Shown: in pieces, positions 6,759 through 45,968 of the stretch
Layout: every line of letters starts with the position of its first letter
How positions within the stretch are numbered: position 1 is the stretch's first letter
Assembly: GCA_903933915.1 (NCBI GenBank)
Contig: CAIZLW010000102.1
Span: forward strand, 1-63,410
DNA: 63,410 nucleotides
Origin: an uncultured beta proteobacterium
Lineage (GTDB): Bacteria; Pseudomonadota; Gammaproteobacteria; Burkholderiales; SG8-41
Direction: 5' to 3'
Notes under the pieces: model-generated
Told to the model about the DNA's origin: nothing
Databases searched by the model: none
Seen by the model: only the letters and a program-made list of their open reading frames with translations
Made by a program: the position numbers and the translations under genes

Positions 6759-9566
6759 TCAGCTCAGCTTGCCGTGGCACTGCTTGTATTTTTTGCCCGA
6801 ACCGCAGGGGCAGGGATCGTTGCGGCCGACTTTCTGACCGTCGCGCACGTAGGGCTGCACAGGGTCGCTTTCTTCCTGCGCCGCAGCCTCGGGCTCGGCA
6901 ACGGCCGGCTCGGTCGTTCCGGTCAGCGCATCGGCGTGCTGGTACTGCACGTTCTGCAGCGCTTCGTGGTCCTCGGCCGCGCGCAATTCCTCCGCACTGC
7001 GGATCTGTACCGTCATCAACGTACGCGTGACGTCGGTCTTGATCATGTCCAGCAGCAGGGAGAACAGCTCAAACGCTTCGCGCTTGTACTCCTGCGTCGG
7101 ATTCTTCTGCGCGTAACCGCGCAGATGTATGCCCTGACGCAGATGATCGAGCGCCGAGAGATGTTCACGCCAGTGCGAATCCACACTTTGCAGCATGATC
7201 GCGCGTTCGTACTGCCGCATCGCCGGCTGGTCGACCGAACCGGTTTTTTCAATGTAACGCGCGTGCGCCGCCTCGACCACGCGCTCGCGCAGCACGGTCT
7301 CTTCCATATCCGGACTGTTCTGCAGCCACTGCTGGACCGGCAGATCCAGGCCCAGTTCACCGCGCAGCACGGTCTCCAGTCCGGGAATGTCCCACTGCTC
7401 CTCAAGACTGCCCGGCGGCACATGCGTGGCCAGATGCCCGTTGACAACATCGGTGCGCATTGCGGCGATCGTCGCTGAAATATCGGAACTCTCGAGCAGC
7501 TCATTGCGCTGCTGATAGATGACCTTGCGTTGATCGTTGGCCACATCGTCATACTCAAGCAGATGCTTGCGCATGTCGAAGTTGCGCGCCTCGACCTTGC
7601 GCTGCGCGTTTTCGATCGATCGCGTCACCCACGGATGCTCGATCGCCTCGCCATCCGGCATTTTCAGCCGCTCCATGATCGCGGAGACGCGGTCGGAAGC
7701 AAAAATGCGCAGCAGCGAATCGTCAAGCGCCAGATAGAAACGGCTGGAACCCGGATCACCCTGGCGGCCGGAACGGCCGCGCAACTGGTTGTCAATCCGC
7801 CGTGATTCGTGACGCTCGGTGCCGATGATATGCAGACCGCCGGATTTCAATACCTGGTCGTGACGCAGTTGCCATTCAGCACGCAACGTGGCCACGCGCT
7901 GCTCGCGCGCCGCCGGATCAAGGCTTTCGTCGGCCAGCACGCGGTTGATTTCCGGCTCGGGGTTGCCGCCGAGCACGATATCCGTGCCGCGGCCCGCCAT
8001 GTTGGTGGCAATGGTGATGACCTGCGGCCGGCCGGCCTGGGTGATGATCTCGGCTTCGCGCGCATGCTGCTTGGCATTGAGCACGTTGTGGGGCAGCTTC
8101 TCTTTCTGCAGCATGCCGGCGATGTACTCGGAGTTCTCGATCGAGGTCGTGCCGACGAGCACTGGCTGGCCGCGCTCGTAGCAACCGCGAATGTCATTGA
8201 TGATCGCCTGGTATTTTTCCCGCGACGTGCGGAACACCTGGTCCATGCGGTCGTCGCGGATCATCGGATGATGCGTCGGGATGACCACCGTCTCCAGCCC
8301 GTAAATCTGCTGGAACTCGTAGGCTTCGGTATCCGCCGTGCCGGTCATGCCGGCAAGCTTGCCGTACATGCGGAAGTAGTTCTGGAAGGTAATCGTGGCG
8401 AGCGTCTGGTTTTCCTTCTGGATCTCCACGCTTTCCTTGGCTTCAATCGCCTGATGCAGCCCTTCCGACCAGCGACGGCCCGGCATCAACCGCCCGGTGA
8501 ACTCATCGACAATGATGATCTCGTTGTCCTGCACGACATACTGCTGGTCGCGGTGGAACAAGCTGTGCGCCCGCAACGCCGCATTCAGATGATGCATCAG
8601 CGAGATATTGGCGGCGTCGTAGAGGCTACCGCCCTCAGGCAGCATGCCCGCCTGCGCCAACAGCGCTTCGGCGCGCTCGTGTCCGTCCTCGGAGAGGACG
8701 ACCTGGTGGCCCTTCTCGTCGACCCAGTAATCACCCGGGTCTTTTTCATCCTTCTGCCGCACCAGCTTCGGCGCCACGACATTCATGCGCACGTAGAGAT
8801 CGGTGGTGTCCTCCGCCTGACCGGAAATGATCAGCGGTGTGCGCGCCTCGTCGATCAGGATCGAATCGACCTCGTCGACGATGGCGTAGGCCAGCCCGCG
8901 CTGCACTTTTTCGGACAACTCGTAGACCATGTTGTCGCGCAGGTAATCGAAGCCGAATTCGTTGTTGGTGCCGTAGGTAATGTCGGCGCGGTAGGCTTCC
9001 TGCTTGAGCGTGTGCTCCATCTGCGACAGGTTGACGCCCACGCTGAGGCCGAGGAAACGGTAAATGCGGCCCATCCAGTCGGAATCGCGCTGCGCCAGAT
9101 AGTCGTTGACGGTCACGATGTGCACGCCGGTGCCGGCGAGCGCATTGAGGTAAGCCGGCAATGTCGCCATCAGGGTCTTGCCCTCGCCGGTACGCATTTC
9201 CGCAATCTTGCCGCTATGCAGCGCAAGGCCGCCGACCAGCTGCACATCGAAATGACGCATGCCCATTACGCGCTTGCCGGCTTCGCGAACTACGGCAAAA
9301 GCTTCGGGGAGCAGCGCATCCAACGCTGCACGGCGACGGCGGTCGATATCGGCTGACTGCGCAGCCGCTTCGACAGCCGACTCAGGCGCTGCTACAGCCT
9401 GGCGAATGCGCTCGCGGAATTCTTCGGTCTTGGCACGTAACTGATCGTCGGACAGGGCCGAGATCTGCGGCTCCAGCGCATTGATGGCGCGTACTGTTCG
9501 CCGATATTGCTTGAGCAGCCGTTCATTGCGGCTGCCGAATACTTTCTTCAATAAACCGGTAATCAT
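6759..9566 (-). CDS. secA: Preprotein translocase ATPase SecA
   Basis: Motor ATPase that drives unfolded preproteins through SecYEG at the inner membrane. It has 935 residues, full length. Visible features: Walker A '[20 protein letters not shown]', the DEAD-like box '[20 protein letters not shown]', helicase domain 2 '[15 protein letters not shown]' and '[19 protein letters not shown]', and the C-terminal SecB-binding zinc motif '[15 protein letters not shown]'. It starts with the canonical '[16 protein letters not shown]'. It sits between argJ downstream and an M23 peptidase upstream, with a strong terminator between the peptidase and secA, so secA needs its own promoter within about 20 bases or some read-through. 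Confidence 0.98.
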
Positions 9567-9579
9567 GAACTTCCCGAAT

Positions 9580-9606
9580 AAAAAAGGGGTGGGATAATCC
9601 CACCCC
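9580..9606 (-). terminator. Rho-independent terminator between the M23 peptidase gene and secA
   Basis: Perfect 9-bp stem (GGGGTGGGA at 9586-9594 pairing with TCCCACCCC at 9598-9606) with a 3-base loop. On the minus strand it is followed by six T residues (A run at 9580-9585). It lies 30 bases past the stop of the M23 gene and 13 bases before the secA start. Confidence 0.9.
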
Positions 9607-9635
9607 CTTGCAATCCTTGCGTTTGGTGCAGCCGG

Positions 9636-10553
9636 TCAGCCGGGCAACTGCAGAAACCGCGCGGGGTTCAAAGCGGCACCGCGCTGGCGCACCTCAAAAT
9701 GCAGATGCGAGCCTGTTGCGCGACCGGTCCGGCCAACATCGGCGATCCGGGATCCGCGGAAAACCACATCACCGACTTTCACGTATTTCTTCGATGCGTG
9801 GGCATAACGCGATATCAGATCGTTGCCGTGATCAATCTCGATCATATTACCATATTGAGGGTGAAACTCGGCGTAGACAACCACCCCTGCAGCCGCTGAA
9901 AACACCGGGGTGCCTTCCTCGGCCATGAAGTCGATGCCCTCATGAAATGCACGCTGGCCGGTGAACGGATCAATGCGCCAGCCGAAGTTCGAGGAATACC
10001 AGCCACCCTCGACCGGCAGCTTGGTCGGGATCAGTTTCTTGCGCGCGCTTTCCTGCGTATACATCGACTCCAGCAGGCCGAGTTTGTCGCCGCGGTCTTC
10101 CAGTTGGCGGGTCAACTCATCAATCTGCTGTGTAAAGTCGCTCAGCGAAAGGTTCTGGCTGGGAATTGAAGACGGCGCGCCGCCGCGCCCGGGCACCTCG
10201 TTGAACATCAGGTCCTGGGGCTTGAATCCGGCGAGTTTGGCCAGACGCTCGCCCAGAGTTTCGAGACGCAGCAACTGCGCCTGCATCTGACCCAAGCGGA
10301 CAGCCATCGCATTCAGGTTATCCTGCAGGTAAGATTGGTTTTTTTCCTGCTGCTGGCGCTGGATGGAAACCAGCACGTCCCGCACATAGGGAATATTCAG
10401 TTCGGCGGCAAAACGCAGGATGCCGTAATTGAGCGCCCCGGCCAGCAAGATCACCAACCCGAACATGGCCATGCCTGAAGCAATCAGGTGCGGCCAGCCC
10501 AAAGTAATGGTCCGCGCCTTTGGCAGCTTCTCGGAAACCAGAATAATATTCAT
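9636..10553 (-). CDS. M23 family peptidoglycan metallopeptidase (LytM domain)
   Basis: Envelope peptidase of 305 residues, anchored by an N-terminal membrane segment at about residues 25-50. A coiled-coil-rich periplasmic region (about residues 60-165) and a C-terminal LytM/M23 domain follow. The zinc ligands are present: His and Asp of 'FHEGIDF' and the His pair of 'GSHLHFEV'. It could be an active DD-endopeptidase, or an EnvC/NlpD-like activator with intact ligands. This gene next to secA is a recurrent betaproteobacterial arrangement. Its ATG is only 21 bases from the divergent DciA-like ATG, so both promoters must overlap the opposite gene. Confidence 0.92.
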   Translation of the reverse strand: MNIILVSEKLPKARTITLGWPHLIASGMAMFGLVILLAGALNYGILRFAAELNIPYVRDVLVSIQRQQQEKNQSYLQDNLNAMAVRLGQMQAQLLRLETLGERLAKLAGFKPQDLMFNEVPGRGGAPSSIPSQNLSLSDFTQQIDELTRQLEDRGDKLGLLESMYTQESARKKLIPTKLPVEGGWYSSNFGWRIDPFTGQRAFHEGIDFMAEEGTPVFSAAAGVVVYAEFHPQYGNMIEIDHGNDLISRYAHASKKYVKVGDVVFRGSRIADVGRTGRATGSHLHFEVRQRGAALNPARFLQLPG

Positions 10554-10574: not shown

Positions 10575-11015
10575 ATGTCCAACCGCAAACTAAGCGCCCT
10601 GATCGGCAACACCACGGGCTTATCAGCTCTCAATCGGACCATGCAGCGCATTGCTGCACTGCAAAGGCTATATGAAGTCTGCACGCCCCCTGAACTGATC
10701 CCGGCAAGCCGTGTGGTCGGAGACCGCGGCGGCATACTGATGATAGCGGCAGACAACGGTGCAATCGCGGCAAAACTGCGCCAGTTGGCGCCCCGACTGC
10801 TCAAGAATCTACAAAAGCAGAGGGCGCAGGTTACTGGAATTCACATCCAAGTTCAAGTTTTCCAGCCTGCCCGGCGGCCCGCGCCGGTGCCGAAAAAATC
10901 GCCATTAAGCATTGATTCTATTGAGTATTTTGAGAAATTGTCGCAGCGCATCAAAGATCCCGGTTTACGGTCTGCGCTGTCCAGATTCGCCGCCAGGCGG
11001 CGCGCCGGGGCCTGA
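10575..11015 (+). CDS. DUF721 / DciA-like protein
   Basis: A 146-residue protein with a DUF721 (DciA-type) domain; DciA members load the replicative helicase DnaB, but short DUF721 proteins vary and the role here is inferred. The recognisable block runs from 'MQRIAALQRLYEVCTPPEL' to 'LMIAADNGAIAAKLRQLAP', with hydrophobic strands and helices as in the family, followed by a basic tail ('FAARRRAGA'). I chose the ATG at 10575 because the frame further upstream is antisense to the M23 gene and carries no family similarity. It is convergent with the small membrane gene at 11039-11224. Confidence 0.75.
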   Translation: MSNRKLSALIGNTTGLSALNRTMQRIAALQRLYEVCTPPELIPASRVVGDRGGILMIAADNGAIAAKLRQLAPRLLKNLQKQRAQVTGIHIQVQVFQPARRPAPVPKKSPLSIDSIEYFEKLSQRIKDPGLRSALSRFAARRRAGA

Positions 11016-30177: not shown

Positions 30178-30395
30178 GTGTCGATTTAGCAAATTCCTTT
30201 TTTACGACAACGACTTACGCGCACTTGTTGAGGTCTGGATTAACCATTTTTTGACGCTGAAATAATCCAATCAAAACAAAGGGATATTACGCGTACTGAA
30301 AGTAGCGCATTAAGTAATTGTGCTTAAAAATCAGGCGATTAGGCGCGTTGGCCGTCGCCAGACCCCGACACGGCCGAAAAATACGCAGGAAAAGT
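30178..30395. other. AT-richer gap between the mraZ promoter and the rnpB 3' end
   Basis: With the mraZ leader this makes about 330 bases without a protein gene. Beyond the promoter and boxes I see only AT-rich stretches (for example around 30190-30300), no convincing reading frame, and no clear terminator hairpin for rnpB. The AT-rich part could act as an UP element for the mraZ promoter. Confidence 0.5.
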
Positions 30396-30760
30396 GAAGC
30401 TGGCCGTTAAGCCGGGTTCTGTCGTGGACAGCCATTCCTCTGGGCCGCGCATTACTGCACGGCTCTAGCCACCTACCCGCAAGCTCGGCGGGACGCGTCA
30501 ACGCTTGCCTATTCGGTGTTGCTCCGGGTGGAGGTTACCGCGTTTCACCCCGCTGAACGGACCGGAGCAATGCGCACGTTGCCGTACACACGCCTCGACC
30601 TGATCAGCGGACTCGTCTCTGTGGCCCTATTCCTCGCCTCACGGCGGACGGGCGTTACCCGTCACCCTACCCTATGGAGCCCGGACTTTCCTCTATGCAC
30701 GGCACGCACGGGTTGCCCCGTCCGGTTTGTTCCGCACACAGCGGCTGCCTGGCCAGCTTC
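30396..30760 (-). ncRNA. rnpB: RNase P RNA (bacterial type A)
   Basis: Catalytic RNA of RNase P, which matures tRNA 5' ends. On the minus strand it starts GAAGCTGGCC and ends with the complementary GGCCAGCTTC (helix P1). It contains the universal 'GAGGAAAGTCCGGGCTCCAT' block (plus strand around 30673-30693) and, near the 3' end, 'ACAGAACCCGGCTTA' (30408-30422). The length of about 365 bases suits type A. Ends are placed by P1 pairing and may be off by a few bases. A weak -10-like GATACC lies about 10-15 bases upstream. Confidence 0.96.
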
Positions 30761-36091: not shown

Positions 36092-36535
36092 TTACAAGGG
36101 CGCCTTCGGACGCCCTTGTTGTTTCAGCAGTCGCAGCAGCGCGCCGAGCAACGGCAGTTTTTCATACAGCTCTTCGGCCGCATCCCAGTAATCGCGATGC
36201 ACCGCCACCAGCCCTGCCGCATCAAGAGTGATCAGGCTGGCGCCATGAATGTTCTGGGTGACTTGCGGTCGCCAGCCGCGGAAATGGAACTCGAAATCCC
36301 AGGTCAGCATCACGCGCGCGCCGTCAACCATGCGCTCGCGCACCAGGAATCGCGGCGCATCAAGACGCTCGAACATGTGTTGAAAAATGGCCGTCACCGC
36401 CGGAATCCCTTTTACGTCGCTGAAGGGATCGCGGAAACGGCAGTCCGCCGCGTAGTATTCCGGCAACTCCGCAATCGACTGCAGGGTCAGTGTTTCAAAG
36501 AAGCGGACCAGCGCATCCACCCGTTGCTGCGTCAT
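36092..36535 (-). CDS. SnoaL/NTF2-like protein (last gene of the light-regulon operon)
   Basis: A 147-residue protein of the NTF2/SnoaL-like cone fold from the ATG at 36535 ('MTQQRVDALVRFFETLTLQS'). 'YYAADCRFRDPFSDVKGIPA' and 'FHFRGWRPQVTQNIHGASLI' are typical strands of the fold; such proteins may be isomerases, hydrolases or binding proteins. Its start overlaps the SDR stop (ATGA). Proteins of this kind recur with the same partners (SDR, DUF3833, MFS, Cfa, DUF1365). No substrate can be read from sequence. Confidence 0.85.
   Translation of the reverse strand: MTQQRVDALVRFFETLTLQSIAELPEYYAADCRFRDPFSDVKGIPAVTAIFQHMFERLDAPRFLVRERMVDGARVMLTWDFEFHFRGWRPQVTQNIHGASLITLDAAGLVAVHRDYWDAAEELYEKLPLLGALLRLLKQQGRPKAPL
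36095..36118. terminator. Terminator hairpin between convergent BON and SnoaL-like genes
   Basis: CAAGGGCG (36095-36102) pairs with CGCCCTTG (36111-36118) around CCTTCGGA. TTGTTT follows on the plus strand. It overlaps the last codons of the minus-strand SnoaL-like gene, whose stop is at 36092-36094, so it ends the plus-strand message and may serve both directions. Confidence 0.8.
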
Positions 36536-37308
36536 AAACCCGTCCCCTTGTGTACCAGCGCGAAATACCAACGATACGGCAGCAGGCGCAGCAGCTTGAG
36601 CCACAGCGTGAAGCGCTTTGGAAAGTGGATCTCGAAATCACCGCGGGCAAACCCGGCAATGATCGCAGTCGCCGCCGCTTCCACGCTGATCAGCGCCGGC
36701 ATCGCAAACGTATTGCGGTCGGTCAGCGGGGTTTTGACGAAACCGGGATTGATCACATAAACGCCGATGCCGCGCGGCGCAAGATCCAGATACAGCGTCT
36801 CGGAAAGATTAATCAGTGCTGCCTTGGTCGCACCGTAGACCAGGGCCGTCGGCAATCCGCCATAGCCGGCAACACTGGATACCACCGCGACACCACCGGC
36901 TCCTTGCTGCAGCAACTGGTTTATAACCGGCGCCAGGCAGTTGATTACGCCATTGATATTGACGTCCACCAGACGCCGGGCGTCCGCGGCGTCAAGATCC
37001 CAGGCCCGCACCGGCTGGTGCGCGCCCGAACACAACACCACCAGATCAACACCGCCCCAAGCGGAAACCACGCGCCGCAAGGCCGGCAGTACGGCAGCCG
37101 CATCCGTTACATCCAGCGGCACCGCCAGCGCCTGCGCGCCATGCGCGGCCGCGAGCCGCTCCAACTCACCGGCTCGCCGGGCCGACAGCGCAACGCGGGC
37201 GCCGCGCGTGAGCAGCGCCATGGCCAGCGCCTCACCGATGCCGCTCGATGCGCCGACCACCCACACGCGCTGGTCCCGCCATTCAAGGATGCGACGGTTG
37301 AGGCTCAT
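36532..37308 (-). CDS. Short-chain dehydrogenase/reductase
   Basis: A 258-residue SDR: NAD(P)-binding 'VVGASSGIGEALAMALL', 'VVLCSGAH', and the catalytic Ser-Tyr-Lys as 'VVSSVAGYGG' and 'LVYGATKAALINLSE'. The C-terminus has a hydrophobic, basic stretch ('FTLWLKLLRLLPYRWYFAL') that may contact membrane lipid, unusual for a soluble SDR and fitting a lipid substrate. It overlaps the DUF3833 and SnoaL-like genes by 4 bases each. Confidence 0.93.
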   Translation of the reverse strand: MSLNRRILEWRDQRVWVVGASSGIGEALAMALLTRGARVALSARRAGELERLAAAHGAQALAVPLDVTDAAAVLPALRRVVSAWGGVDLVVLCSGAHQPVRAWDLDAADARRLVDVNINGVINCLAPVINQLLQQGAGGVAVVSSVAGYGGLPTALVYGATKAALINLSETLYLDLAPRGIGVYVINPGFVKTPLTDRNTFAMPALISVEAAATAIIAGFARGDFEIHFPKRFTLWLKLLRLLPYRWYFALVHKGTGL

Positions 37309-37835
37309 GGACGTCGCCTGAAACTCAGCGTCACTTCGCCGAGGCGTACGCCGAACTTGCTCATCACCGAGCGGTTGAGCATGACCTGTTCGTCCATCAG
37401 ATACATCCAGTCGTCAAAATCCACTTCCCAGACGCGGCCATCGACCTCCAGCTTCAGCACATACTGCCAGCGCAATGCATTGCCATGCAGTTCGCCGATC
37501 GCCTCACCGATCACATCGTCGGCCGTGCCGCGATAACGATGTTCGTCGATGCGCTCCAGCGTCCACACCCTGCGGCTCTTGCTGCCGTCAGAATACTCGA
37601 AATGCTCATCCAGAATCCCTGTATTGCCGGACCAGCGGGCATCGATGCGCACGGTAAACCGTTTAACCACTTTGCCGCTGCGGTCCTGGAAAACGCCCCA
37701 TGCATCGATGGTGCCGTCGAAATAACGCTGCAGATCGAGTGCCGGCCGTTCATCGCGGTACTGTTCGACCGCTACCGATCCGCAGCCCGCAAGACTCATC
37801 AACAACAGCGCGAACACACTTCGCAATAAACTCAT
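37305..37835 (-). CDS. DUF3833 lipoprotein
   Basis: A 176-residue lipoprotein of the DUF3833 family: lipobox 'LMSLAGCGS' (Cys18), then a lipocalin-like beta-rich domain with 'LQRYFDGTIDAWGVFQDRSG' and 'WSGNTGILDEHFEYSDG'. The start at ATG 37835 has AAGGAG nine bases upstream. The fold suggests binding of a hydrophobic ligand in the periplasm; the activity is unknown. It overlaps the MFS and SDR genes by 4 bases each. Confidence 0.92.
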   Translation of the reverse strand: MSLLRSVFALLLMSLAGCGSVAVEQYRDERPALDLQRYFDGTIDAWGVFQDRSGKVVKRFTVRIDARWSGNTGILDEHFEYSDGSKSRRVWTLERIDEHRYRGTADDVIGEAIGELHGNALRWQYVLKLEVDGRVWEVDFDDWMYLMDEQVMLNRSVMSKFGVRLGEVTLSFRRRP

Positions 37836-39130
37836 TTCACCACTCCTTTCAAAGACATCGCTGTATGCCGCGTGTCGGTCAGGGTCAACGCCAGCATCGC
37901 CGCTGCCGCCAGCTTGATGGCGCAAGGCAGCAGTGCGTAAACCAGTGACAAGGCCGATCCCGAACCTGCCGCCGATCCCGGCTGATAACCCAGCCATTGC
38001 AGCATCGGCAGCGCGACACCCGCGGCCAGCGCCAGCGCCAACTTTTCCAGCAGATGCCACAGCCCGAAGTAAGCCCCGTCGGGACGACCGCGATCATCTT
38101 CATCGTCATCAATCAGGTCGGCGAGCAACGAGGCCGGCAGCGCAAGGTCGGCGCCGAAGGCGATCCCGGAGAGCACGCACACTGCGGCAAATGCCGCCGC
38201 GTCACCCGCGCCCAGAAACCATGTCCAGACAAACGCCGCCACCGCCAGCACCATCGCCACCAGCCAGGCGCGGACTTTGCCGGCGCGATCCGCAAGGCGC
38301 ACCCACAGCGGCATCCCCGCAGCGCCGGCAGCGAAATACAGGATCAGGAACAACGGCGTCAGATCCGCACGCTGCAATACATCGGCGGCAAAAAACAGCA
38401 GCAGCGTCGCCGGCACGGCTGCGGCCATGCCGTTGACCAGGAACACCGCGGCCAGCCGGCGGAACCGCGCATTACGCAAGGGCAGCATCAGCGCTGACAA
38501 TGAAACGGCGCGCGCGGGAGCGCGGGCGACAGGAGATGGGCCGGCGAGCAGCGTGACACCCGCGGCAAACACCAGCACCGGCGCATAACCCAGCGCAAAC
38601 GTGGCGAGACCGTCTGCTGCGCCCTGCTGCCGAACCAGCAATTCCGGAATGGCGGCGGCACAAAGCACGCCTGCCAGCGCGGCAACACCACGCGTCGCGG
38701 TGATCCGGGTGCGTTCGACGTAATCGCGCGACAGCGCGCTGCCCAGTGCGAGGTGGCCGATGCTGGCCGCGCTCAGACCCAGATAAGCGAGCACCAGCGC
38801 AGCCACCAACCAGGGCACCAGCAGCGTCATTGATGCCGGCGGATTGAATAGCAGCCAGAGTCCTGCGGCCAGCGCGGGCACGGCGCCGGCGATCATCACC
38901 TTGTGCCCGCCGTAGCGCGGTGGAATGCGATCGGCCAGCGCGCCGAGCAACGGATCACTGACGGCATCAAGCAGACGCACGCCGAGCAGCACCGCGCCGA
39001 TTACCGCGAGGTCCAGACCGAGTGCCGAGTAGAACTTCGGCATCTGCACATGCACCGGCAAGGCCGCCGCCGCAAGCGGCAGCGCTACCGCGGCATAAGC
39101 CGTCAGCTCGAATTTAGTCAGCGCGGCCAT
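37832..39130 (-). CDS. MFS transporter of the GPH (glycoside-pentoside-hexuronide:cation) type
   Basis: A 432-residue protein with about twelve membrane segments. 'LLDAVSDPLLGALADRIPPR' and the following 'YGGHKVMIAG' are the GPH-family signature between helices 2 and 3. Although the family is named for sugar transport, this branch travels with Cfa/DUF1365/FAD genes and its substrate is unknown; lipid or fatty-acid export is a guess from context. It overlaps the chalcone-isomerase-like gene by 17 bases and DUF3833 by 4. Confidence 0.9.
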   Translation of the reverse strand: MAALTKFELTAYAAVALPLAAAALPVHVQMPKFYSALGLDLAVIGAVLLGVRLLDAVSDPLLGALADRIPPRYGGHKVMIAGAVPALAAGLWLLFNPPASMTLLVPWLVAALVLAYLGLSAASIGHLALGSALSRDYVERTRITATRGVAALAGVLCAAAIPELLVRQQGAADGLATFALGYAPVLVFAAGVTLLAGPSPVARAPARAVSLSALMLPLRNARFRRLAAVFLVNGMAAAVPATLLLFFAADVLQRADLTPLFLILYFAAGAAGMPLWVRLADRAGKVRAWLVAMVLAVAAFVWTWFLGAGDAAAFAAVCVLSGIAFGADLALPASLLADLIDDDEDDRGRPDGAYFGLWHLLEKLALALAAGVALPMLQWLGYQPGSAAGSGSALSLVYALLPCAIKLAAAAMLALTLTDTRHTAMSLKGVVK

Positions 39131-39659
39131 TGCCGCTCAGCAGCGCGGCGCGCAGATCGGGCGTCTGGGTGCGCGGATCCAGCCAGATCTCGAAAAAGCG
39201 GCGCGCAAACTCAGGGTCGTCGATGGTGCCGAGCAATCGCGTGGCGGAGTAAAACTGCGCGCCGCGCTGCGGCCGGTAAATGCCGATCAACCGGCTGCCG
39301 GTCTGCACGTCGGGAAAGGTGCTGCGCATTGCCGCGTCCCAGCGCGCCAGTTTGGCCTCATCCCTGACGCCGAGCCGGCGCATTTCGTCAATGCTGGTTT
39401 CAGCCAGTTGACCGGACGTCGCCTGGCGCGCATAAACGATATCCAGCACATACGGCGCATCGGCCTGCCAGCGCCCGTCGCGCGTCCACAGCGCAGCGTC
39501 ATAAACATGGAACCCCCACCAGCGCAAACGACCCTTGCCGACCATGCGGCAGGTTTCCAGCGCGCTGCACACCGCTGGCGGCAATTCGGCCGGCACGTTG
39601 ACGGCCGCGGCAGGCGCTGCGAACACCAGCACCAACGCAAATGCTGCGGCGTTACGCAT
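39114..39659 (-). CDS. Chalcone-isomerase-fold exported protein
   Basis: A 181-residue protein with a cleavable signal peptide ('NAAAFALVLVFAAPAAAV') and a chalcone-isomerase-like domain: 'RMVGKGRLRWWGFHVYDAAL' and 'VYARQATSGQLAETSIDEMR' match the bacterial branch of that fold, which binds fatty acids rather than chalcones in several members. It was set to start at ATG 39659, overlapping the cfa-like stop by 8 bases. A fatty-acid-binding role would fit its operon. Confidence 0.87.
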   Translation of the reverse strand: MRNAAAFALVLVFAAPAAAVNVPAELPPAVCSALETCRMVGKGRLRWWGFHVYDAALWTRDGRWQADAPYVLDIVYARQATSGQLAETSIDEMRRLGVRDEAKLARWDAAMRSTFPDVQTGSRLIGIYRPQRGAQFYSATRLLGTIDDPEFARRFFEIWLDPRTQTPDLRAALLSGNGRAD

Positions 39660-40863
39660 GAACCAGCACCGCCTGCACCACATCCGTGGCGCGGGCGCGG
39701 AAACCGGCTTCGCAATAGGCGAGATAAAAACGCCAGGTACGCATGAAGGGCTCGTCGAAACCCTGGTCGCGGACTGCAGGTGCCGCGCAATCAAACATCT
39801 GGTGCCAATGCCTCAGCGTCTCCGCGTAATCCAGTCCGAAATGATGCATGTCTTCGACGCTCATGCCCTGCCCGGCGGCGACCTCACCGAAACGCTGCGG
39901 CGACGGCAGCATGCCGCCGGGGAAGATGTATTGCTGGATGAAATCGGTGCCCGTGCGATAGCGCTCGAACTTGGACTCGGCAATGGTGATGCTCTGCACC
40001 AGCGCGCGGCCGCCCGGCTTCAGTCGTTCACGCAGCATGCTGAAATAACCCGGCCAGTAGCGTTCCCCTACCGCCTCGAACATCTCGATCGACACCACAT
40101 GGTCAAACTGTCCGTCGAGATCGCGGTAATCCTGCAGCCGGAGTTCGACACGGTCCTGAAGGCCCGCTGCAGCGATGCGGCGTTGCGCATATTCCAGCTG
40201 GGCCGCGGAAATGGTGATGCCCGTAACTCGGCAACCAGCACGCGCGGCATGTTCGGCAAAACCGCCCCAGCCACAGCCGACTTCAAGAATGTGCTGGCCG
40301 GGCTGCACATTGAGAGCCCGCAGAATGTGGGCGTATTTCGCCGACTGCGCATCAGCCAGACTGCGCGTGAGATCGCCTTCAAACAAGGCCGATGAATAGG
40401 TCATCGTCGAATCCAGCCACAGCCGGTAGAAGTCATTACCAAGATCATAATGGGCGTGGATGTTCTTGCGGCTGCCGCTGCGCGTGTTCGGGCGCAACCA
40501 GTGACGCAAGCGGTAGGCCAGCGTGGCCCACCAGCGGCCATGGATAGCCGCTTCAATCGCCTGCTCGTTCATTGCAGCCAGCAGCAGCAGTTGCGTCAGA
40601 TCATCGGTTTGGGCACGACCGGCAATATAGGCTTCGGCGAGTCCGATGTCGCCGCGCCCGAGAATGTCGTTGCATACCCGCCAGTCGGTGATCCTCAGTG
40701 CCGCATGAGGGCCGGGCTGGGCACCGGAAAACTCCTGGCAACGCCCGTCCGGGCAATGCAGCGTGATCTTTCCGCAGCGCAGCTGCAAAAGCAGTTTGAA
40801 CATCCAGCGTGCGGAGGCGGGTTCGGTGCGCAGCAGCGCGCGGTTGGTCAGGACGGTCGTCAT
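39652..40863 (-). CDS. Cyclopropane-fatty-acid synthase family SAM methyltransferase
   Basis: A 403-residue Cfa-family enzyme methylating the double bond of phospholipid acyl chains. The N-terminal domain is followed by 'AHYDLGNDFYRLWLDSTMTY' and the SAM site 'HILEVGCGWGGFAEHAA'; 'VVSIEMFEAVGERYWPGYFS' and 'QYIFPGGMLPSP' are family motifs. It may make cyclopropane lipid or, like Rhodobacter UfaM in a similar gene set, a methyl-branched unsaturated chain on the way to furan fatty acids. The start overlaps the DUF1365 stop (ATGA). Confidence 0.93.
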   Translation of the reverse strand: MTTVLTNRALLRTEPASARWMFKLLLQLRCGKITLHCPDGRCQEFSGAQPGPHAALRITDWRVCNDILGRGDIGLAEAYIAGRAQTDDLTQLLLLAAMNEQAIEAAIHGRWWATLAYRLRHWLRPNTRSGSRKNIHAHYDLGNDFYRLWLDSTMTYSSALFEGDLTRSLADAQSAKYAHILRALNVQPGQHILEVGCGWGGFAEHAARAGCRVTGITISAAQLEYAQRRIAAAGLQDRVELRLQDYRDLDGQFDHVVSIEMFEAVGERYWPGYFSMLRERLKPGGRALVQSITIAESKFERYRTGTDFIQQYIFPGGMLPSPQRFGEVAAGQGMSVEDMHHFGLDYAETLRHWHQMFDCAAPAVRDQGFDEPFMRTWRFYLAYCEAGFRARATDVVQAVLVHA

Positions 40864-41633
40864 CGTGTGGTGTCTTCTGCGGGGGGTAGCGGTTTGGCAA
40901 AAAAGGGTACGCGCTTCAGCCACAGCCGCAGCGCGTGGTAGTGGATGCGCAGCATCACGCCCAGCGTCATCCACGGGTAACGGAAAAATGCGCACAACAG
41001 CGCCGCCGTGGTCACCGCCTGTGCGGTGCCGCTGACGCTGGTGACGAGGCTGTTACCCCGCCCGTCTTCATAGTCGATGCGGAACGCGCAACGCTGCGGA
41101 TGATCGGCAAAGCGGAAACGGTATTCACCGCTGACCGGAAAAAACGGCGACACATGGAAGACCTTGCGGGCGCTCAGCCAGTCCCCGCCCGCAATCGGGC
41201 GCGCATCGGCGTGCGCCACCAGATAGTTGTGATGTTCGCCGAAGGTGTTGCTGACCGCCGCAAGCACGGCGCGCAATGCACCGGTGCGGTCATGGCATAG
41301 CCAGAAGCTGACGGGATTGAACACGTAACCCAGCACCCGCGGAAATGTTTGCAGCCAGATCGCGCCGTCAGCGCAGGCCAGCCCGTGACGAGCCAGCAGG
41401 CCGCGAATCCACGGCTCCAGCGGGCTGCCGTCGCGCGGACCGTGATCCGCATCGTAAAAGCCGCACAGGTTCCAGCGGTTTCTTGAACACAATGCCGGCA
41501 GCGGCTGTTCGGGCCCGTCGATGCGCAGACGCAGAAAAAACACGCCCTGACGGAAAGCATGCACGGCGGGTGCCAGCCGGCGATGCAGCACTTCGCCGCA
41601 ATACAGCCGCGCGGCTGAAACCGTCGTGCTCAT
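40860..41633 (-). CDS. DUF1365 protein
   Basis: A 257-residue DUF1365 protein. Recognisable blocks are 'RLYCGEVLHRRLAPAVHAFR', 'LQTFPRVLGYVFNPVSFWLC', 'VSNTFGEHHNYLV' and 'KVFHVSPFFPVSGEYRFRF'. The family is found almost always between an FAD oxidoreductase and a Cfa-like gene, as here, with 4-base overlaps to both. This suggests joint action on the same acyl chain; no reaction has been shown as far as I know. Confidence 0.93.
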   Translation of the reverse strand: MSTTVSAARLYCGEVLHRRLAPAVHAFRQGVFFLRLRIDGPEQPLPALCSRNRWNLCGFYDADHGPRDGSPLEPWIRGLLARHGLACADGAIWLQTFPRVLGYVFNPVSFWLCHDRTGALRAVLAAVSNTFGEHHNYLVAHADARPIAGGDWLSARKVFHVSPFFPVSGEYRFRFADHPQRCAFRIDYEDGRGNSLVTSVSGTAQAVTTAALLCAFFRYPWMTLGVMLRIHYHALRLWLKRVPFFAKPLPPAEDTTR

Positions 41634-42940
41634 GCTGCGGCTTTCAGCGCTTCGGATTGGGCAATCCAGGGCGCCGTCACGCCCAGACCTGCAGCAACAG
41701 CCATGCCGGCCTTGAGGCCGTCTTCGTGAAAACCATAACCGGCCCAGGCCCCGCAATACCAGGTGTGATGCCGGCCCTGCATCTGCGGCAGCCACGACTG
41801 CGCGGCAACGGCGCCGAGATCGAACACCGGGTGGGCGTAATGATAACGCTCGATGACATGGCCGGGCCGCGGCTCGCGGATCGGGTTGAGCGTGACGATT
41901 ACCGGACTGCTGAACGGCAGCGGCTGCAGCTTGTTGATCAGGTAGCTCACGCCCACGGGCCGTCCGCCATCCGCGGCGTGATCGGCATGGTAGTTCCACG
42001 CCGACCAGGCCGAGCGGCGACGCGGCAGAAACTGCTCGTCGGTATGCAGAACGACTTCGTTGTACTGATAGCCGATCGCGGCCAGCATGCGACGCTCGAC
42101 GGCATCGGCATCCGCGAGCAGTCGCAGGGTCTGATCACTGTGGCAGGCCAGCACGACCTCGTCAAAATGTTCCACGGCACCATCGGCAAATTGCAGTTCG
42201 GCCCCGGCCGTATTGCGCCGGACTTCAGTCACCGGCCGGTTCAGCCGCACATCGGACAGAACTGCCGCCAGCTTGTCGACATAGCTTCGCGCGCCGCCGT
42301 TGACGGTGCGCCATTGCGGACGGTCACTGACCTGCAGCAGCCCGTGATTGGCGCAAAACCTGAAAAACGTTCGTGCCGGATACTGCAGCATCGTCGCAGT
42401 CGGGCAGGACCAGATGGCGCCGGCCATGGGTAGCAGATACCAGTCGCGAAATGCACGGCCGTAGCCGCCGGCAACAAGAAACTCCCCCAGCGACTGCGCA
42501 GCATCACCTTGCGCCTGCGCCAACGCACCGGCCTCCCGGTTGAAGCGAAGGATATCGCCGAGCATGCCCCAGAACGCCGGACGCAACAGATTGCGCCGCT
42601 GCGCAAATACCGTCGACAGGCTGCTGCCAGCCCACTCCAGGCGCTCGGCTTCGAGTTTCACCGAGAACGACATGTCGCTGGCAGTGGAAGTCACCCCGAG
42701 GTAATCAAACAGCGCGATCAGATTCGGATAGGTACGCTCGTTGAACACCAGAAAACCGGTATCCACCGGCGCAGTGATGCCGTCCAGTTTGACGTCAACG
42801 GTATGGGTGTGCCCGCCAAGATAGTCGTTGGCCTCGAACAACGTCACTGCATACGCGCGCGACAGCAGCCACGCCGCCGACAGCCCGGCAATGCCGGAGC
42901 CGACAACGGCGATGCGTTTCGCGGGCGCCTGCCGGTTCAT
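41630..42940 (-). CDS. FAD-dependent amine-oxidase-fold oxidoreductase
   Basis: A 436-residue flavoprotein: dinucleotide-binding 'RIAVVGSGIAGLSAAWLLS' at residues 9-27, 'YLGGHTHTVDVKLDG', substrate-domain 'MAGAIWSCPTATMLQYPART' and C-terminal FAD site 'YCGAWAGYGFHEDGLKAGMA'. This is the amine oxidase/phytoene-desaturase superfamily branch that pairs with DUF1365 and Cfa-like proteins. A desaturase or oxidase acting on methylated acyl chains is the likely role. It overlaps folE2 by 4 bases. Confidence 0.93.
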   Translation of the reverse strand: MNRQAPAKRIAVVGSGIAGLSAAWLLSRAYAVTLFEANDYLGGHTHTVDVKLDGITAPVDTGFLVFNERTYPNLIALFDYLGVTSTASDMSFSVKLEAERLEWAGSSLSTVFAQRRNLLRPAFWGMLGDILRFNREAGALAQAQGDAAQSLGEFLVAGGYGRAFRDWYLLPMAGAIWSCPTATMLQYPARTFFRFCANHGLLQVSDRPQWRTVNGGARSYVDKLAAVLSDVRLNRPVTEVRRNTAGAELQFADGAVEHFDEVVLACHSDQTLRLLADADAVERRMLAAIGYQYNEVVLHTDEQFLPRRRSAWSAWNYHADHAADGGRPVGVSYLINKLQPLPFSSPVIVTLNPIREPRPGHVIERYHYAHPVFDLGAVAAQSWLPQMQGRHHTWYCGAWAGYGFHEDGLKAGMAVAAGLGVTAPWIAQSEALKAAA

Positions 42941-43743
42941 GCCGCGAATGGCTTGATGCGTTCAACCAGGGCGTAGGCCGAATGGTTGTGGATCGATTCA
43001 AAGTTCTCCGCCTCGACCTTGTAACCGCGCACCCGGGAGTCGGCATCCAGCCGCAGCGCAATGTCGCGCACCAGGTCTTCGACAAACTTCGGATTGTCGT
43101 AGGCGCGTTCGGTCACATACTTTTCATCCGGGCGCTTGAGCAGTCCGTAGACCTCGCAGGAAGCCTCCTGCTCGGCGATGCCGGCGATTTCCTCAATGGT
43201 CAGCGTTGCAGAAGCTTCCACGGTGATCGTGATGATCGAACGCTGGTTGTGCGCGCCGTAATCGGAAATCTCCTTGGAACAGGGACAGAGGCTGGTCGCC
43301 GGTGCCGATACCTGGGTGGTGAACACGCTGCCGCCCGCCTTGCGTTCCCCGCGCAGCATCACCTGGTAGTCGAGCAGGCTGGACACGCCGGACACCGGCG
43401 CCCGCTTGCTGATGAAATAGGGGAAGCGCATTTCGATCATGCCGCTATCGGCATCCAGCCGCTGCAGCATTTTCTCCAGCAGCGCAGCGAATCCACCGGC
43501 ATCCAGCGCCTGTTCATGCTGCTGCAGCACTTCGATAAAACGTGACATGTGCGTGCCCTTGACCTCGGGCGGCAGACCGACCGTCATGTCGACGGTGGCC
43601 ACACTGGAGACCACACCACCATCCGCACTGGCGATCCGTACCGGGTGGACCAGCGATTTCACGCCGACCTGGTTGATGTAGATGTTGCGGCGGTCAGCGT
43701 TGGCCTGGACGTCAGGCAACAGCCATTTTTCGGGGGCATTCAT
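42937..43743 (-). CDS. folE2: GTP cyclohydrolase FolE2 (type IB)
   Basis: Converts GTP to 7,8-dihydroneopterin triphosphate, the entry to folate and pterins. It has 268 residues from the ATG at 43743, with AGGAG upstream. 'SLCPCSKEISDYGAHNQRS' holds the catalytic Cys and metal ligands of the COG1469/FolE2 family; 'IEMRFPYFISKRAPVSG' is also typical. It is the first gene of the nine-gene operon. A pterin supply (for example for a photolyase antenna such as methenyltetrahydrofolate) would suit a light-response regulon. Confidence 0.96.
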   Translation of the reverse strand: MNAPEKWLLPDVQANADRRNIYINQVGVKSLVHPVRIASADGGVVSSVATVDMTVGLPPEVKGTHMSRFIEVLQQHEQALDAGGFAALLEKMLQRLDADSGMIEMRFPYFISKRAPVSGVSSLLDYQVMLRGERKAGGSVFTTQVSAPATSLCPCSKEISDYGAHNQRSIITITVEASATLTIEEIAGIAEQEASCEVYGLLKRPDEKYVTERAYDNPKFVEDLVRDIALRLDADSRVRGYKVEAENFESIHNHSAYALVERIKPFAA

Positions 43744-43774
43744 AGGAGCTCCTGTGGAGGGATATACTGTAGTT

Positions 43775-43931
43775 TGTCCATGGCAGATGACTGACATAAA
43801 GCCACGCCGTTTAGCTAATTGGGCGTCAGCACATTGACTTTGTCCAATGTCTGTCCAATAATGTCTTGGTCAAAGATACAGAATGACTGCAGAAATTCCC
43901 ATTTTTAAGCGATAAAACCCAATACTGTCCA
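43775..43931. promoter_or_regulatory. Four TGTCCA half-sites across the divergent folE2 / regulator gap
   Basis: TGTCCA occurs at 43775-43780, 43841-43846, 43852-43857 and 43926-43931 in a 194-base gap. The first lies 32 bases upstream of the folE2 ATG, next to a -10-like TATATC (minus strand, 43761-43766) without a good -35. The last lies just before the regulator ATG. The distribution suggests one protein controls both directions. Confidence 0.55.
43834..43862 (+). promoter_or_regulatory. Promoter of the CarH/LitR-type gene with two 11-bp-spaced direct repeats inside it
   Basis: -35 TTGACT (43834-43839), 17-base spacer, -10 AATAAT (43857-43862). TGTCCAAT occurs at 43841 and again at 43852, 11 bases apart, filling the spacer and the -10 edge. 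On the other strand each reads ATTGGACA. Known CarH photoreceptors bind 11-bp direct repeats overlapping promoters, so this is a strong candidate operator for autorepression. Confidence 0.75.
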
Positions 43932-43937
43932 CGACAA

Positions 43938-44867
43938 ATGAACAATACCCTTATCTCTGCAGGGACTACCCCGGATGTTTGCTACAACATCTCTGCTGTC
44001 GAGCGGGATACCGGTTTGTCCAAGGACACCTTGCGCGTCTGGGAACGCCGCTACGGCTTCCCGAAACCGTTGCGCGACCGCCACGACGAGCGCCTGTATT
44101 CATCGCCGGAACTGGAAAAACTGCGCCTGCTGCGACTGCTGATCGATTCCGGTCACCGCCCTGGCAAAATCATCAACCGCAGCGTTTCCGAACTGACCCA
44201 GCTGATCTCCTCGCGTGCGCCGGCACAGAGCACGCCGCCCGAAATCGAGGCGATCACCGAACTGCTGCTGCGCCACGATGTCGAAAACTTCCGCAACGCG
44301 CTGCAGCAGGCGCTGATGAAGCAGGGCCTGCTGCGCTTTGTCACCGAAACCGTCACCGCTTTGAATCACTGGATCGGCGAAGCCTGGCTCGCGGGACGCG
44401 TCGCCATTTTTGACGAGCACCTGTACGCCGAGCACGTGCAGAACATCCTGCGTAACGCGATCATCGCGCAACCCGGCCGCGGCTCGGCACCTCGCGTGTT
44501 GCTGACCTCGCTGCCCGGCGAAAAACACCGCATCGGCCTGCTGATGGTGGAAGCCGTGCTGACCGCCGAAGGCGCAGCCTGCGTCGCCCTCGGCGCCGAA
44601 ACTCCGGTGATAGACGTCAAGAATGCCGTGCCGGCATATGCGGTGGATGTGGTCGCGCTGTCGTTCAGCAGCGCGGTAACCCAAAGCGCCGCGCTGGCCG
44701 GTTTGAGCGAACTGCGGGGTCTGTTACCCGACGGCACTGAAATCTGGGGCGGCGGCGGCGCCCTGGCACGTGCGCGCAAGGCTCCTGAAGGCATTCTGCT
44801 GCTGCGTTCCTTCGACGACATGCGTTATGCCCTGGAACGCTGGCGCGTCGAACACGCAAGACGCTGA
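43938..44867 (+). CDS. litR: MerR-type regulator with cobalamin-binding domain (CarH/LitR photoreceptor type)
   Basis: A 309-residue regulator. The N-terminal MerR winged helix (residues 16-80) includes 'YNISAVERDTGLSKDTLRVW' and 'ERRYGFPKP'. The helical cap that covers adenosylcobalamin carries the W-x9-EH signature (Trp150, Glu160, His161). The Rossmann domain carries 'GEKHRIG', with His197 as the lower cobalt ligand. These are the residues known to make CarH/LitR light-sensitive: dark tetramer binds DNA, light breaks the Co-C bond and releases it. It is divergent from the folE2 operon and followed by DUF2256 and the diiron gene. Confidence 0.9.
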   Translation: MNNTLISAGTTPDVCYNISAVERDTGLSKDTLRVWERRYGFPKPLRDRHDERLYSSPELEKLRLLRLLIDSGHRPGKIINRSVSELTQLISSRAPAQSTPPEIEAITELLLRHDVENFRNALQQALMKQGLLRFVTETVTALNHWIGEAWLAGRVAIFDEHLYAEHVQNILRNAIIAQPGRGSAPRVLLTSLPGEKHRIGLLMVEAVLTAEGAACVALGAETPVIDVKNAVPAYAVDVVALSFSSAVTQSAALAGLSELRGLLPDGTEIWGGGGALARARKAPEGILLLRSFDDMRYALERWRVEHARR

Positions 44868-44887
44868 ACACCACGGCGAGTCGCGTA

Positions 44888-45016
44888 ATGCGAAAATCCG
44901 AGTTGCCGCTCAAGATCTGCGTGGCCTGCGGCCGCCCGATGGCCTGGCGTAAGCGCTGGGCCAAGGTCTGGGACACTGTGAAATACTGCTCGGAGCGCTG
45001 CCGGCGCAGCCGCTGA
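44888..45016 (+). CDS. DUF2256 small zinc-finger protein
   Basis: A 42-residue protein starting 'MRKSELPLKICVACGRPMAW', with Cys pairs 'CVACG' and 'CSERC' as probable zinc ligands and the family run 'WRKRWAKVWDTVKYCSERCR'. DUF2256 genes usually neighbour photolyase or cryptochrome genes. Here it lies 20 bases after the LitR-type regulator and 49 bases before the diiron gene, on the same strand. It is easily missed because of its size. The function is unknown. Confidence 0.9.
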   Translation: MRKSELPLKICVACGRPMAWRKRWAKVWDTVKYCSERCRRSR

Positions 45017-45065
45017 AGCCGGGGCTCACCAGCAGCAATATTCTGGAAACATTAGGAAGGTCATA

Positions 45066-45968
45066 ATGCAAATACCCGTCACACCGAAATCCCCGGAGCC
45101 TCCGATGCAAGTCAACCCGGAATTCATCACCACCAGTCATATGCTATACCCGGGAATCTTCAAATCCCTGGAACAGATCCGCTGGAACCTGTCCAACGAC
45201 GTGCCCTGGGATACCTTCGACGGCAGCAAACTGTCGGACGAACAGGCGCTGACCATCAAGATGAACGCCATCACCGAATGGGCGGCGCTGCCGGCCACCG
45301 AAATGTTCCTGCGCGACAACCAGCACGACAGTGACTTCTCGGCCTTCATGTCGGTGTGGTTCTACGAAGAACAGAAACATTCGCTGGTGCTGATGGAATA
45401 CCTGCGCCGCTTCCGTCCGGAACTGGTGCCGACACAGGAAGAACTGCAGGCAGTGCGTTTCACCTTCGACCCGGCCCCGCCGCTGGAAACGCTGATGCTG
45501 CATTTCTGCGGTGAAATCCGCCTCAACCACTGGTACCGCTGTGCGATGGACTGGCACACCGAGCCGGTGATCAAACACATCTACAATCTGATTTCGCGCG
45601 ACGAGGCCCGCCATGGCGGCGCCTACCTGCAATACATGAAACGCGCGCTGAACAGCGTCGGCGATACCGCGCGCACCGCCTTTGCCAAGGTCGGCGTGCT
45701 GATGGCCAGCTCGGGACGCAGCGGCAAGCCGCTGCATCCGACCAATCTGCACGTCAACAAGAGCCTGTTTCCCAACGACACCGTGCAAAGCCGCCTGCCC
45801 GACCCCGAGTGGCTGGAGCACTGGCTCGACCAGCAGATCCGCTTCGACCGCGACTGGGAACATAAGGTGGTGACGGTGATCCTGCGCAATCTGTCGCTGC
45901 TGTTCGGTCGCGAGTTTGAGTCGGTGAAGGACCTCAACCGCTTCCGCAAGGAAATCCCGGCGCACTGA
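45066..45968 (+). CDS. Diiron ferritin-like protein, acyl-ACP desaturase-like
   Basis: A 300-residue helical protein with two diiron ligand motifs, 'WFYEEQKHSLVLMEYLRRF' (E-ExxH) and 'SRDEARHGGAYLQYM' (DExxH), plus Glu residues in 'TEWAALPATEMFL' and 'HFCGEIRLNHWY'. Order and spacing resemble soluble stearoyl-ACP desaturases, so fatty-acyl desaturation or oxygenation is likely; AurF-like N-oxygenation is less so. AGGAAGG precedes the ATG; a second ATG is at 45105. It lies in line with the photoreceptor gene, which adds an O2-dependent enzyme to the regulon. Confidence 0.82.
   Translation: MQIPVTPKSPEPPMQVNPEFITTSHMLYPGIFKSLEQIRWNLSNDVPWDTFDGSKLSDEQALTIKMNAITEWAALPATEMFLRDNQHDSDFSAFMSVWFYEEQKHSLVLMEYLRRFRPELVPTQEELQAVRFTFDPAPPLETLMLHFCGEIRLNHWYRCAMDWHTEPVIKHIYNLISRDEARHGGAYLQYMKRALNSVGDTARTAFAKVGVLMASSGRSGKPLHPTNLHVNKSLFPNDTVQSRLPDPEWLEHWLDQQIRFDRDWEHKVVTVILRNLSLLFGREFESVKDLNRFRKEIPAH

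Follow-up and report, generated by a model that had tools for sequence, protein, structure and literature searches.

A CarH-like LitR regulator paired with a predicted furan-fatty-acid operon in an uncultured Burkholderiales bacterium: a candidate light-controlled membrane-protection regulon

We analyzed a stretch of 63,410 nucleotides (the window) that constitutes contig C102 of a 3.80-Mb draft genome of 246 contigs from an uncultured beta proteobacterium of the order Burkholderiales. In it, a MerR-type regulator gene, here called litR, faces an operon of nine genes transcribed in the opposite direction. Read along the minus strand from 43743 down to 36092, the operon encodes proteins with Pfam matches to FolE2, an amine-oxidase-type FAD family, DUF1365, CMAS/Cfa, Chalcone_3, MFS_2, DUF3833, the short-chain dehydrogenases (SDR) and SnoaL_2. 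With the start codons judged best, its eight junctions overlap by 4, 4, 4, 8, 17, 4, 4 and 4 bases. An earlier reading of this DNA made from the letters alone (the sequence-only reading) had counted seven of eight junctions as overlapping by 4 or 8 bases, which is exact, the 17-base junction being the exception. A ribosome-site-like AGGAG lies upstream of the folE2 start at 43743. The divergent regulator carries MerR_1, B12-binding_2 and B12-binding matches, and the DUF2256 gene and the diiron desaturase-like gene that the same reading had placed after it are both supported by Pfam. The diiron protein also resembles AurF at E 1.3e-5, under the AurF cut-off. A family that has no entry in the protein-family lists used here may still be present.

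The alignment of LitR to Thermus CarH covers residues 11-249 (E 2e-26). Its residues W150, E160, H161 and H197 correspond to CarH W131, E141, H142 and H177, and LGAETP supplies the GxxxP motif; the CarH residue names and the light signature GxxW, EH, GxxH, GxxxP are those defined in PMC11796333. The full set of adenosylcobalamin-binding residues attributed to this protein from the sequence is thus matched residue for residue. The axial His, the Wx9EH motif and the other signature residues are invariant across 13 aligned LitR proteins. A broader collection of 50 LitR loci (45 distinct at 99 % identity), which combines 20 loci of relatives with the best 30 of 91 order-level LitR matches, has GxxW-x9-EH in 50/50, a match to ExHxxGxLM in 49/50 and LGxxTP in 48/50. 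Both B12 subdomains are recognized by Pfam, so that LitR does not share the class II LitR trait of keeping the 4-helix bundle alone. No PAS/LOV family was found among the 15 proteins scanned at the locus, the remaining window proteins lying outside that scan. The genome encodes a cobalamin adenosyltransferase of PF01923, which we take to be the PduO type, and none of the PF02572 type was found in it. By inference, these comparisons support LitR as a B12 regulator of the CarH type that diverges from a furan-fatty-acid gene set and is conserved together with it, its binding of B12 and response to light being predicted.

The chemistry of the operon is suggested by the pathway described for Rhodobacter, in which UfaM methylates, UfaD (NAD/FAD-binding and phytoene-desaturase-like) desaturates, and the DUF1365-containing UfaO is required for an oxygen derived from O2 to enter the furan ring formed on phospholipids (PMC7380195). 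All three families are present together in the window, the comparison being one of families and not an alignment to the Rhodobacter proteins. Because the pathway families correspond, the FAD-DUF1365-Cfa run of the window would by family be a ufaD-ufaO-ufaM run, and DUF1365, which had been called unassigned, no longer deserves that description. The Cfa-like protein scores below the cut-offs of the three listed NCBIfam models for cyclopropane fatty acid synthase. When compared to three solved Cfa proteins, it has Ser in place of the Cys of the YSC motif and Gln in place of the His of the LIH/LLH motif, both of which we take to be bicarbonate-site residues of Cfa. For UfaO and the diiron protein, searching the sequences of solved structures yielded no useful match.

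The pairing of regulator and operon extends well beyond this contig. One contig scan gave 20 loci of relatives, all titled as Burkholderiales or Betaproteobacteria metagenome genomes except for two titled Bordetella parapertussis (L006 and L010), whose labels look doubtful and whose LitR is 83-86% identical to that of the window. Co-occurrence was assessed in these loci and, for LitR and DUF1365, in 250 genomes of the order. The full ufaD-ufaO-ufaM-CHI-MFS-DUF3833-SDR-SnoaL run (CHI, chalcone-isomerase-like) stands beside litR in 17/20 loci of relatives, and in L003, L006 and L017 it is incomplete because a contig end cuts each. At a LitR threshold of E <= 1e-20, the order genomes contain LitR in 83, DUF1365 in 119 and both in 74 cases (odds ratio 22, Fisher p 7e-22, with relatedness uncorrected). 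In 63 of these 74 the two genes are no more than 15 kb apart, 51 times divergently and 12 times on the same strand; in 9 of the other 11 they are on different contigs. Since the run is kept beside litR in relatives and DUF1365 stays close to LitR across the order, the arrangement is more than chance. Among 184 class-level genomes, DUF1365 occurs in 55 and a LitR-like protein in 13, with the two within 15 kb in 6 (read by eye). Other parts of the locus are more variable in the relatives: folE2 is missing beside litR in 7/20, DUF2256 and the diiron gene are each found in 17/20, and in L019, L020 and L022 the diiron gene is located downstream of SnoaL within the ufa run. In L020 and L022, the two distant relatives tested, litR and the ufa genes are separated by a glutathione peroxidase gene (9202-9768 and 9178-9741, respectively). 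Of the 250 order genomes, 2 have ChrR above its cut-off and 4 more show weaker matches, and TIGR02451 (ChrR) at E <= 1e-10 has no match in the genome studied here. One of the two genomes above the cut-off (G371, contig C7, 38535-42102) has ChrR adjoining DUF1365 and no LitR was found there, which amounts to a natural regulator swap.

The intergenic region between litR and folE2 contains inverted repeats of the form TGTC-N3-GACA, one base of which is variable (O1, O2 and O3 in Table 1). In the regions between litR and the operon, this motif has 96 matches in 6,016 bp versus 88 in 344,326 bp elsewhere, each dyad usually being counted on both strands, and Markov shuffles give a mean of 1.6 and a maximum of 12. 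Because these regions were the source of the motif, the enrichment is a description and not an independent test. At least one dyad is present in 50/50 LitR loci and two or more in 43/50; 42 neighboring pairs are spaced 62-65 bp apart, and a third dyad lies 85-89 bp from O1 in 12/50. A strict pair pattern was written after the 50 loci and then searched across the 250 whole genomes. It occurs in 33 of them and is found no more than 300 bp upstream of litR in 31, of which 21 were already among the 50 loci and 10 are new; a reversed-pattern control matched in 1/250. In the genome studied here the strict pair occurs exactly once, at 43862-43936, and 52/83 LitR genomes do not have it.

The dyads are associated with promoter-like sequences. 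TTGACT-N17-AATAAT, directed toward litR, is invariant in 17 aligned sequences (the window and L003-L018) save for the last base of the first hexamer, and in the window and its near relatives it abuts O1. Across 27 litR-adjacent pairs, 18 enclose TTGAC-N17-TANNNT pointing away from litR (core-shuffled mean 0.08, maximum 1), and 18 have a -10 element 16-18 bp past a -35-like end of O1 in the direction of litR (shuffled mean 2.3, maximum 6). Pairs from other genera bracket a promoter pointing away from litR, toward the operon where it is divergent, in 18/22 cases. The class II LitR site TGTACA was also considered as an operator and has no occurrence between litR and folE2. A wider regulon within this genome was likewise sought on the two other photolyase contigs and rejected; they show 4 dyad-like places, 3 of them intragenic and 1 between 3' ends.

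Table 1. Features of the litR locus, in window coordinates
Feature	Position	Strand	Evidence or remark
SnoaL-like gene, last of the operon	36092..36535	-	Pfam SnoaL_2 E 1.2e-13; 4-bp overlap with SDR
Short-chain dehydrogenase, RSP1087-like by description	36532..37308	-	Pfam adh_short 8.9e-45
DUF3833, predicted lipoprotein (lipobox LAGC, by eye), predicted ten-stranded barrel	37305..37835	-	model
MFS_2 / GPH-type transporter	37832..39130	-	Pfam 2.1e-61; below TIGR00792 cut-off
Chalcone-isomerase-fold protein (predicted), probably exported (signal peptide by eye)	39114..39659	-	
UfaM-like phospholipid methyltransferase, Cfa family	39652..40863	-	Pfam CMAS 2.3e-86
UfaO-like protein (DUF1365)	40860..41633	-	Pfam 4.5e-76
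UfaD-like FAD oxidoreductase / fatty acyl desaturase	41630..42940	-	Pfam Amino_oxidase 6.3e-24
folE2, GTP cyclohydrolase	42937..43743	-	NCBIfam FolE2 equivalog 277.6 bits vs cut-off 215
O3, operator-like dyad TGTCCATGGCA, before folE2	43775..43785	.	
Sigma-70-like promoter TTGACT-N17-AATAAT toward litR	43834..43862	+	sequence match, conserved
Two TGTCCA units 11 bp apart inside the litR promoter	43841..43857	+	not kept in all relatives
O1, operator-like dyad TGTCTTGGTCA	43862..43872	.	
O2, operator-like dyad TGTCCACGACA, 64 bp from O1, directly before the litR start codon	43926..43936	.	
litR: MerR DNA-binding and B12-binding domain; W150, E160, H161, H197, LGxxTP	43938..44867	+	
DUF2256, 42 aa	44888..45016	+	Pfam E 1.3e-21
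Photolyase-gene remnant, last codons (NILETLG)	45035..45057	+	alignment to L004, L005, L006; translation
Ferritin-like diiron protein, distantly FA_desaturase_2 / AurF	45066..45968	+	Pfam FA_desaturase_2 E 9.1e-8

The window contains no photolyase gene, as the sequence-only reading had stated, and the PF03441 and PF04244 matches of the genome are confined to contigs C14 and C87. As a trait of the system the absence does not hold, because relatives carry such a gene and the window keeps its tail. A photolyase-like N-terminus is encoded between DUF2256 and the diiron gene in 12 of the 19 loci scripted (L017 not included); in L009, L012, L020 and L021 the longest frame of that gap is on the other strand, and in L010, L015 and L016 there is none. 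The L005 gene, the sole one scanned, matches PF04244. Given the intact gene at this position in relatives and the last codons retained in the window, the photolyase looks like it has been lost in this genome, although an assembly error might produce the same picture. The loss has seemingly occurred more than once, as a 3' tail is found both in the window and in L010 (about 10881-10950), where DUF2256 is gone along with the photolyase body (read by eye). L016 (11075-11251) has a short photolyase piece that retains the beginning and the end (read by eye). A second light-type cluster of the same genome (L027, G000:C87:1-9145) comprises a DPRP photolyase that is 57% identical to the L005 photolyase, a PF03441 photolyase, a DCC-like protein, an SDR, a PAS protein, a fasciclin-like gene and a MerR gene truncated by the contig end. 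Judged by eye against what we take to be the LOV cysteine motif, the PAS protein does not have it.

For the accessory proteins of the operon the evidence is more indirect. We modeled the chalcone-isomerase-like and DUF3833 proteins because searches of solved-structure sequences with their profiles gave nothing useful. The Chalcone_3 protein models as a chalcone-isomerase fold and the DUF3833 protein as a barrel lipoprotein. A ligand-binding Arg after GxG is conserved in plant-type fatty-acid-binding proteins with the chalcone isomerase fold. Such a conserved Arg could not be shown in the chalcone-isomerase-like protein among 15 aligned sequences; at the candidate position, which was picked by eye, it is replaced by Thr in 2/15. 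We equate the MFS gene with RSP1089 of Rhodobacter. RSP1087 is an SDR, and the P. syringae orthologue of RSP1088 is annotated as a lipoprotein (PMC5507510). Because single deletions of RSP1087, 1088 and 1089 left the Rhodobacter fatty acid profile unchanged in the reported experiments (PMC7380195), genes of this type need another role. Elsewhere in the window, the sole Rfam match at gathering scores is a class A RNase P RNA (30392-30760, minus strand), and no tRNA genes were found in the window.

Taken together, these findings make it probable that the locus is a light-gated regulon for the protection of membrane and DNA, in which a B12 photoreceptor replaces sigma-E/ChrR in control of a core singlet-oxygen gene set. 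The steps of the switch are drawn from CarH (PMC8156234) and from the Ufa pathway. In the dark, LitR bound to adenosylcobalamin would assemble on two (or three) TGTC-N3-GACA dyads and repress both litR and the operon. Upon illumination the cobalt-carbon bond would break, LitR would fall off and both directions would be expressed. UfaM would then methylate, UfaD desaturate and UfaO oxygenate phospholipid acyl chains, yielding a singlet-oxygen quencher, a methyl-furan fatty acid. FolE2 may supply pterin or folate, and in relatives the photolyase would be co-induced. The earlier claim that furan-lipid chemistry has been placed under a B12 light sensor thus stands as regards the gene set, the CarH signature and their conserved pairing, whereas the response to light and B12, the repression, the lipid product and the accessory gene roles are predictions.

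A number of observations weigh against this reading. CarH is the best NCBIfam model for LitR, but at 136 bits versus a cut-off of 400 it is not passed, and hence LitR is a CarH homologue outside the NCBIfam equivalog. The draft genome has an estimated contamination of 7.19 %. Of the 119 order genomes with DUF1365, 56 do not have LitR close by, and DUF1365 is missing from 9 of those with LitR. The 5 pairs from the genus of the window show neither the bracketed divergent promoter nor the O1-linked litR promoter pattern, and no minus-strand promoter for the operon was found in the window. The 11-bp CarH operator repeat nAnnTnnACAn, tried as an alternative operator, has no match between litR and folE2. 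No promoter-placed dyad was found on the other photolyase contigs C14 and C87, single dyads not having been sought genome-wide. Finally, Myxococcus CarA has the canonical B12 motif and does not need B12 (PMC8156234).

The case of CarA also favors the alternative that LitR keeps its B12 pocket but works without B12, or that a partner such as a LOV protein supplies the light signal. The class II LitR of P. mendocina is indeed switched by a LOV protein (PMC9758184), and the PAS protein of L027 lies near another MerR gene and photolyases in this genome. Against this, the axial His and Wx9EH are invariant in the 13 aligned LitR. The L027 PAS protein is located on another contig and, judged by eye, has no LOV cysteine motif, and we regard this alternative as unlikely. 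The dyads could instead serve a different regulator, with LitR acting elsewhere, for Thermus CarH binds 11-bp direct repeats and not dyads (PMC8156234), a consensus unmatched between the genes here. This is somewhat less likely still, as the strict pair is directly upstream of litR in 31/33 genomes and every one of the 50 litR loci has at least one dyad. We assign a similarly low probability to a lipid product other than a furan, i.e. to the Cfa-like enzyme making cyclopropane or methyl-branched chains alone. Pfam and NCBIfam do assign the UfaM-like protein to the Cfa family, and the furan product is predicted by gene family, but UfaD- and UfaO-type partners adjoin it in a conserved order and the Cfa Cys and His are replaced. 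The least probable of these alternatives is that the operon answers oxidative stress and not light, in which case LitR would be a regulator responding to redox state or metal. In its favor, singlet-oxygen sigma factors control this gene set in Rhodobacter, as does an oxidative-stress extracytoplasmic function (ECF) factor in Pseudomonas syringae (PMC7380195, PMC5507510), and for a V. cholerae MerR a response to reactive oxygen species has been proposed (PMC5241685). The complete adenosylcobalamin signature and the near absence of ChrR from the order argue against it.

Within the preferred reading of a B12-controlled, light-gated regulon, a more far-reaching proposal can be made, which we put forward tentatively and consider rather doubtful as a whole. 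The Burkholderiales LitR switch would differ from that of CarH, and the genes it releases would make up a whole furan-fatty-acid cycle. One LitR tetramer might span two inverted-repeat sites about six helical turns (62-65 bp) apart, so that two overlapping divergent promoters would be clamped shut in the dark. UfaM, UfaD and UfaO would make the quencher, and the exported chalcone-isomerase-fold protein, the DUF3833 barrel lipoprotein, the GPH-type transporter, the SDR and SnoaL might collect and process the spent ring-opened chains.

For Pseudomonas putida and P. mendocina, control of ufaM and photolyase by light through a LitR-family protein has been published (PMC9758184); what appears to be new is the type of regulator, its breadth and its operator. 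Among the papers listed by our literature searches, which did not cover Sumi 2018 and 2020, none dealt with a B12-type LitR on ufa genes, with its operator pair or with its spread, and DUF3833 was absent from the 30 literature matches listed of 171. Should the reading be correct, B12 light sensing would extend beyond carotenoids to the chemistry of membrane lipids in a large group of environmental bacteria, and the locus would provide a sharp operator as well as candidate furan-lipid roles for the unassigned DUF3833, the chalcone-isomerase-fold protein, SnoaL, DUF2256 and the diiron protein.

Of the known systems, the RpoE-ChrR regulon of Rhodobacter sphaeroides with its RSP1091-1087 operon shares the UfaD, UfaO, UfaM, SDR, lipoprotein and photolyase set; its core comprises rpoE, chrR, an SDR, RSP1088, RSP1090, RSP1091, photolyase and a Cfa-type gene (PMC5507510). 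In the window, however, the regulator is LitR and not sigma-E/ChrR, ufaM is inside the same operon, folE2, chalcone-isomerase-fold and SnoaL genes are added, and the photolyase appears to be lost. The class II LitR of P. putida and P. mendocina (PplR, PmlR) belongs to the same regulator family, has two operator sites around a promoter and mediates strong light induction of ufaM and phrB and a weaker one of folE and folM; the region also holds SDR and FAD oxidoreductase genes. This regulator differs in keeping the 4-helix part of the B12 domain alone, in its LOV partner switch and in its operator TGTACA-N12-TGTACA (PMC9758184). CarH of Thermus, Myxococcus and Bacillus (class I LitR) shares the domain arrangement and all adenosylcobalamin signature motifs, but controls carotenoid genes from an operator of 11-bp direct repeats (PMC8156234). 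The class III LitR of Burkholderia multivorans, from the same order, reportedly needs a chromophore other than B12 (PMC6739363). In Vibrio cholerae, the MerR protein VCA0056 is likewise encoded beside a photolyase, there is a ChrR, and blue light induces a Cfa-like gene, although this is a two-regulator scheme at separate loci (PMC5241685). If our interpretation holds, one conserved anti-singlet-oxygen gene set would be wired, depending on the lineage, to sigma-E/ChrR, to a class II LitR with a LOV protein or to a B12 photoreceptor.

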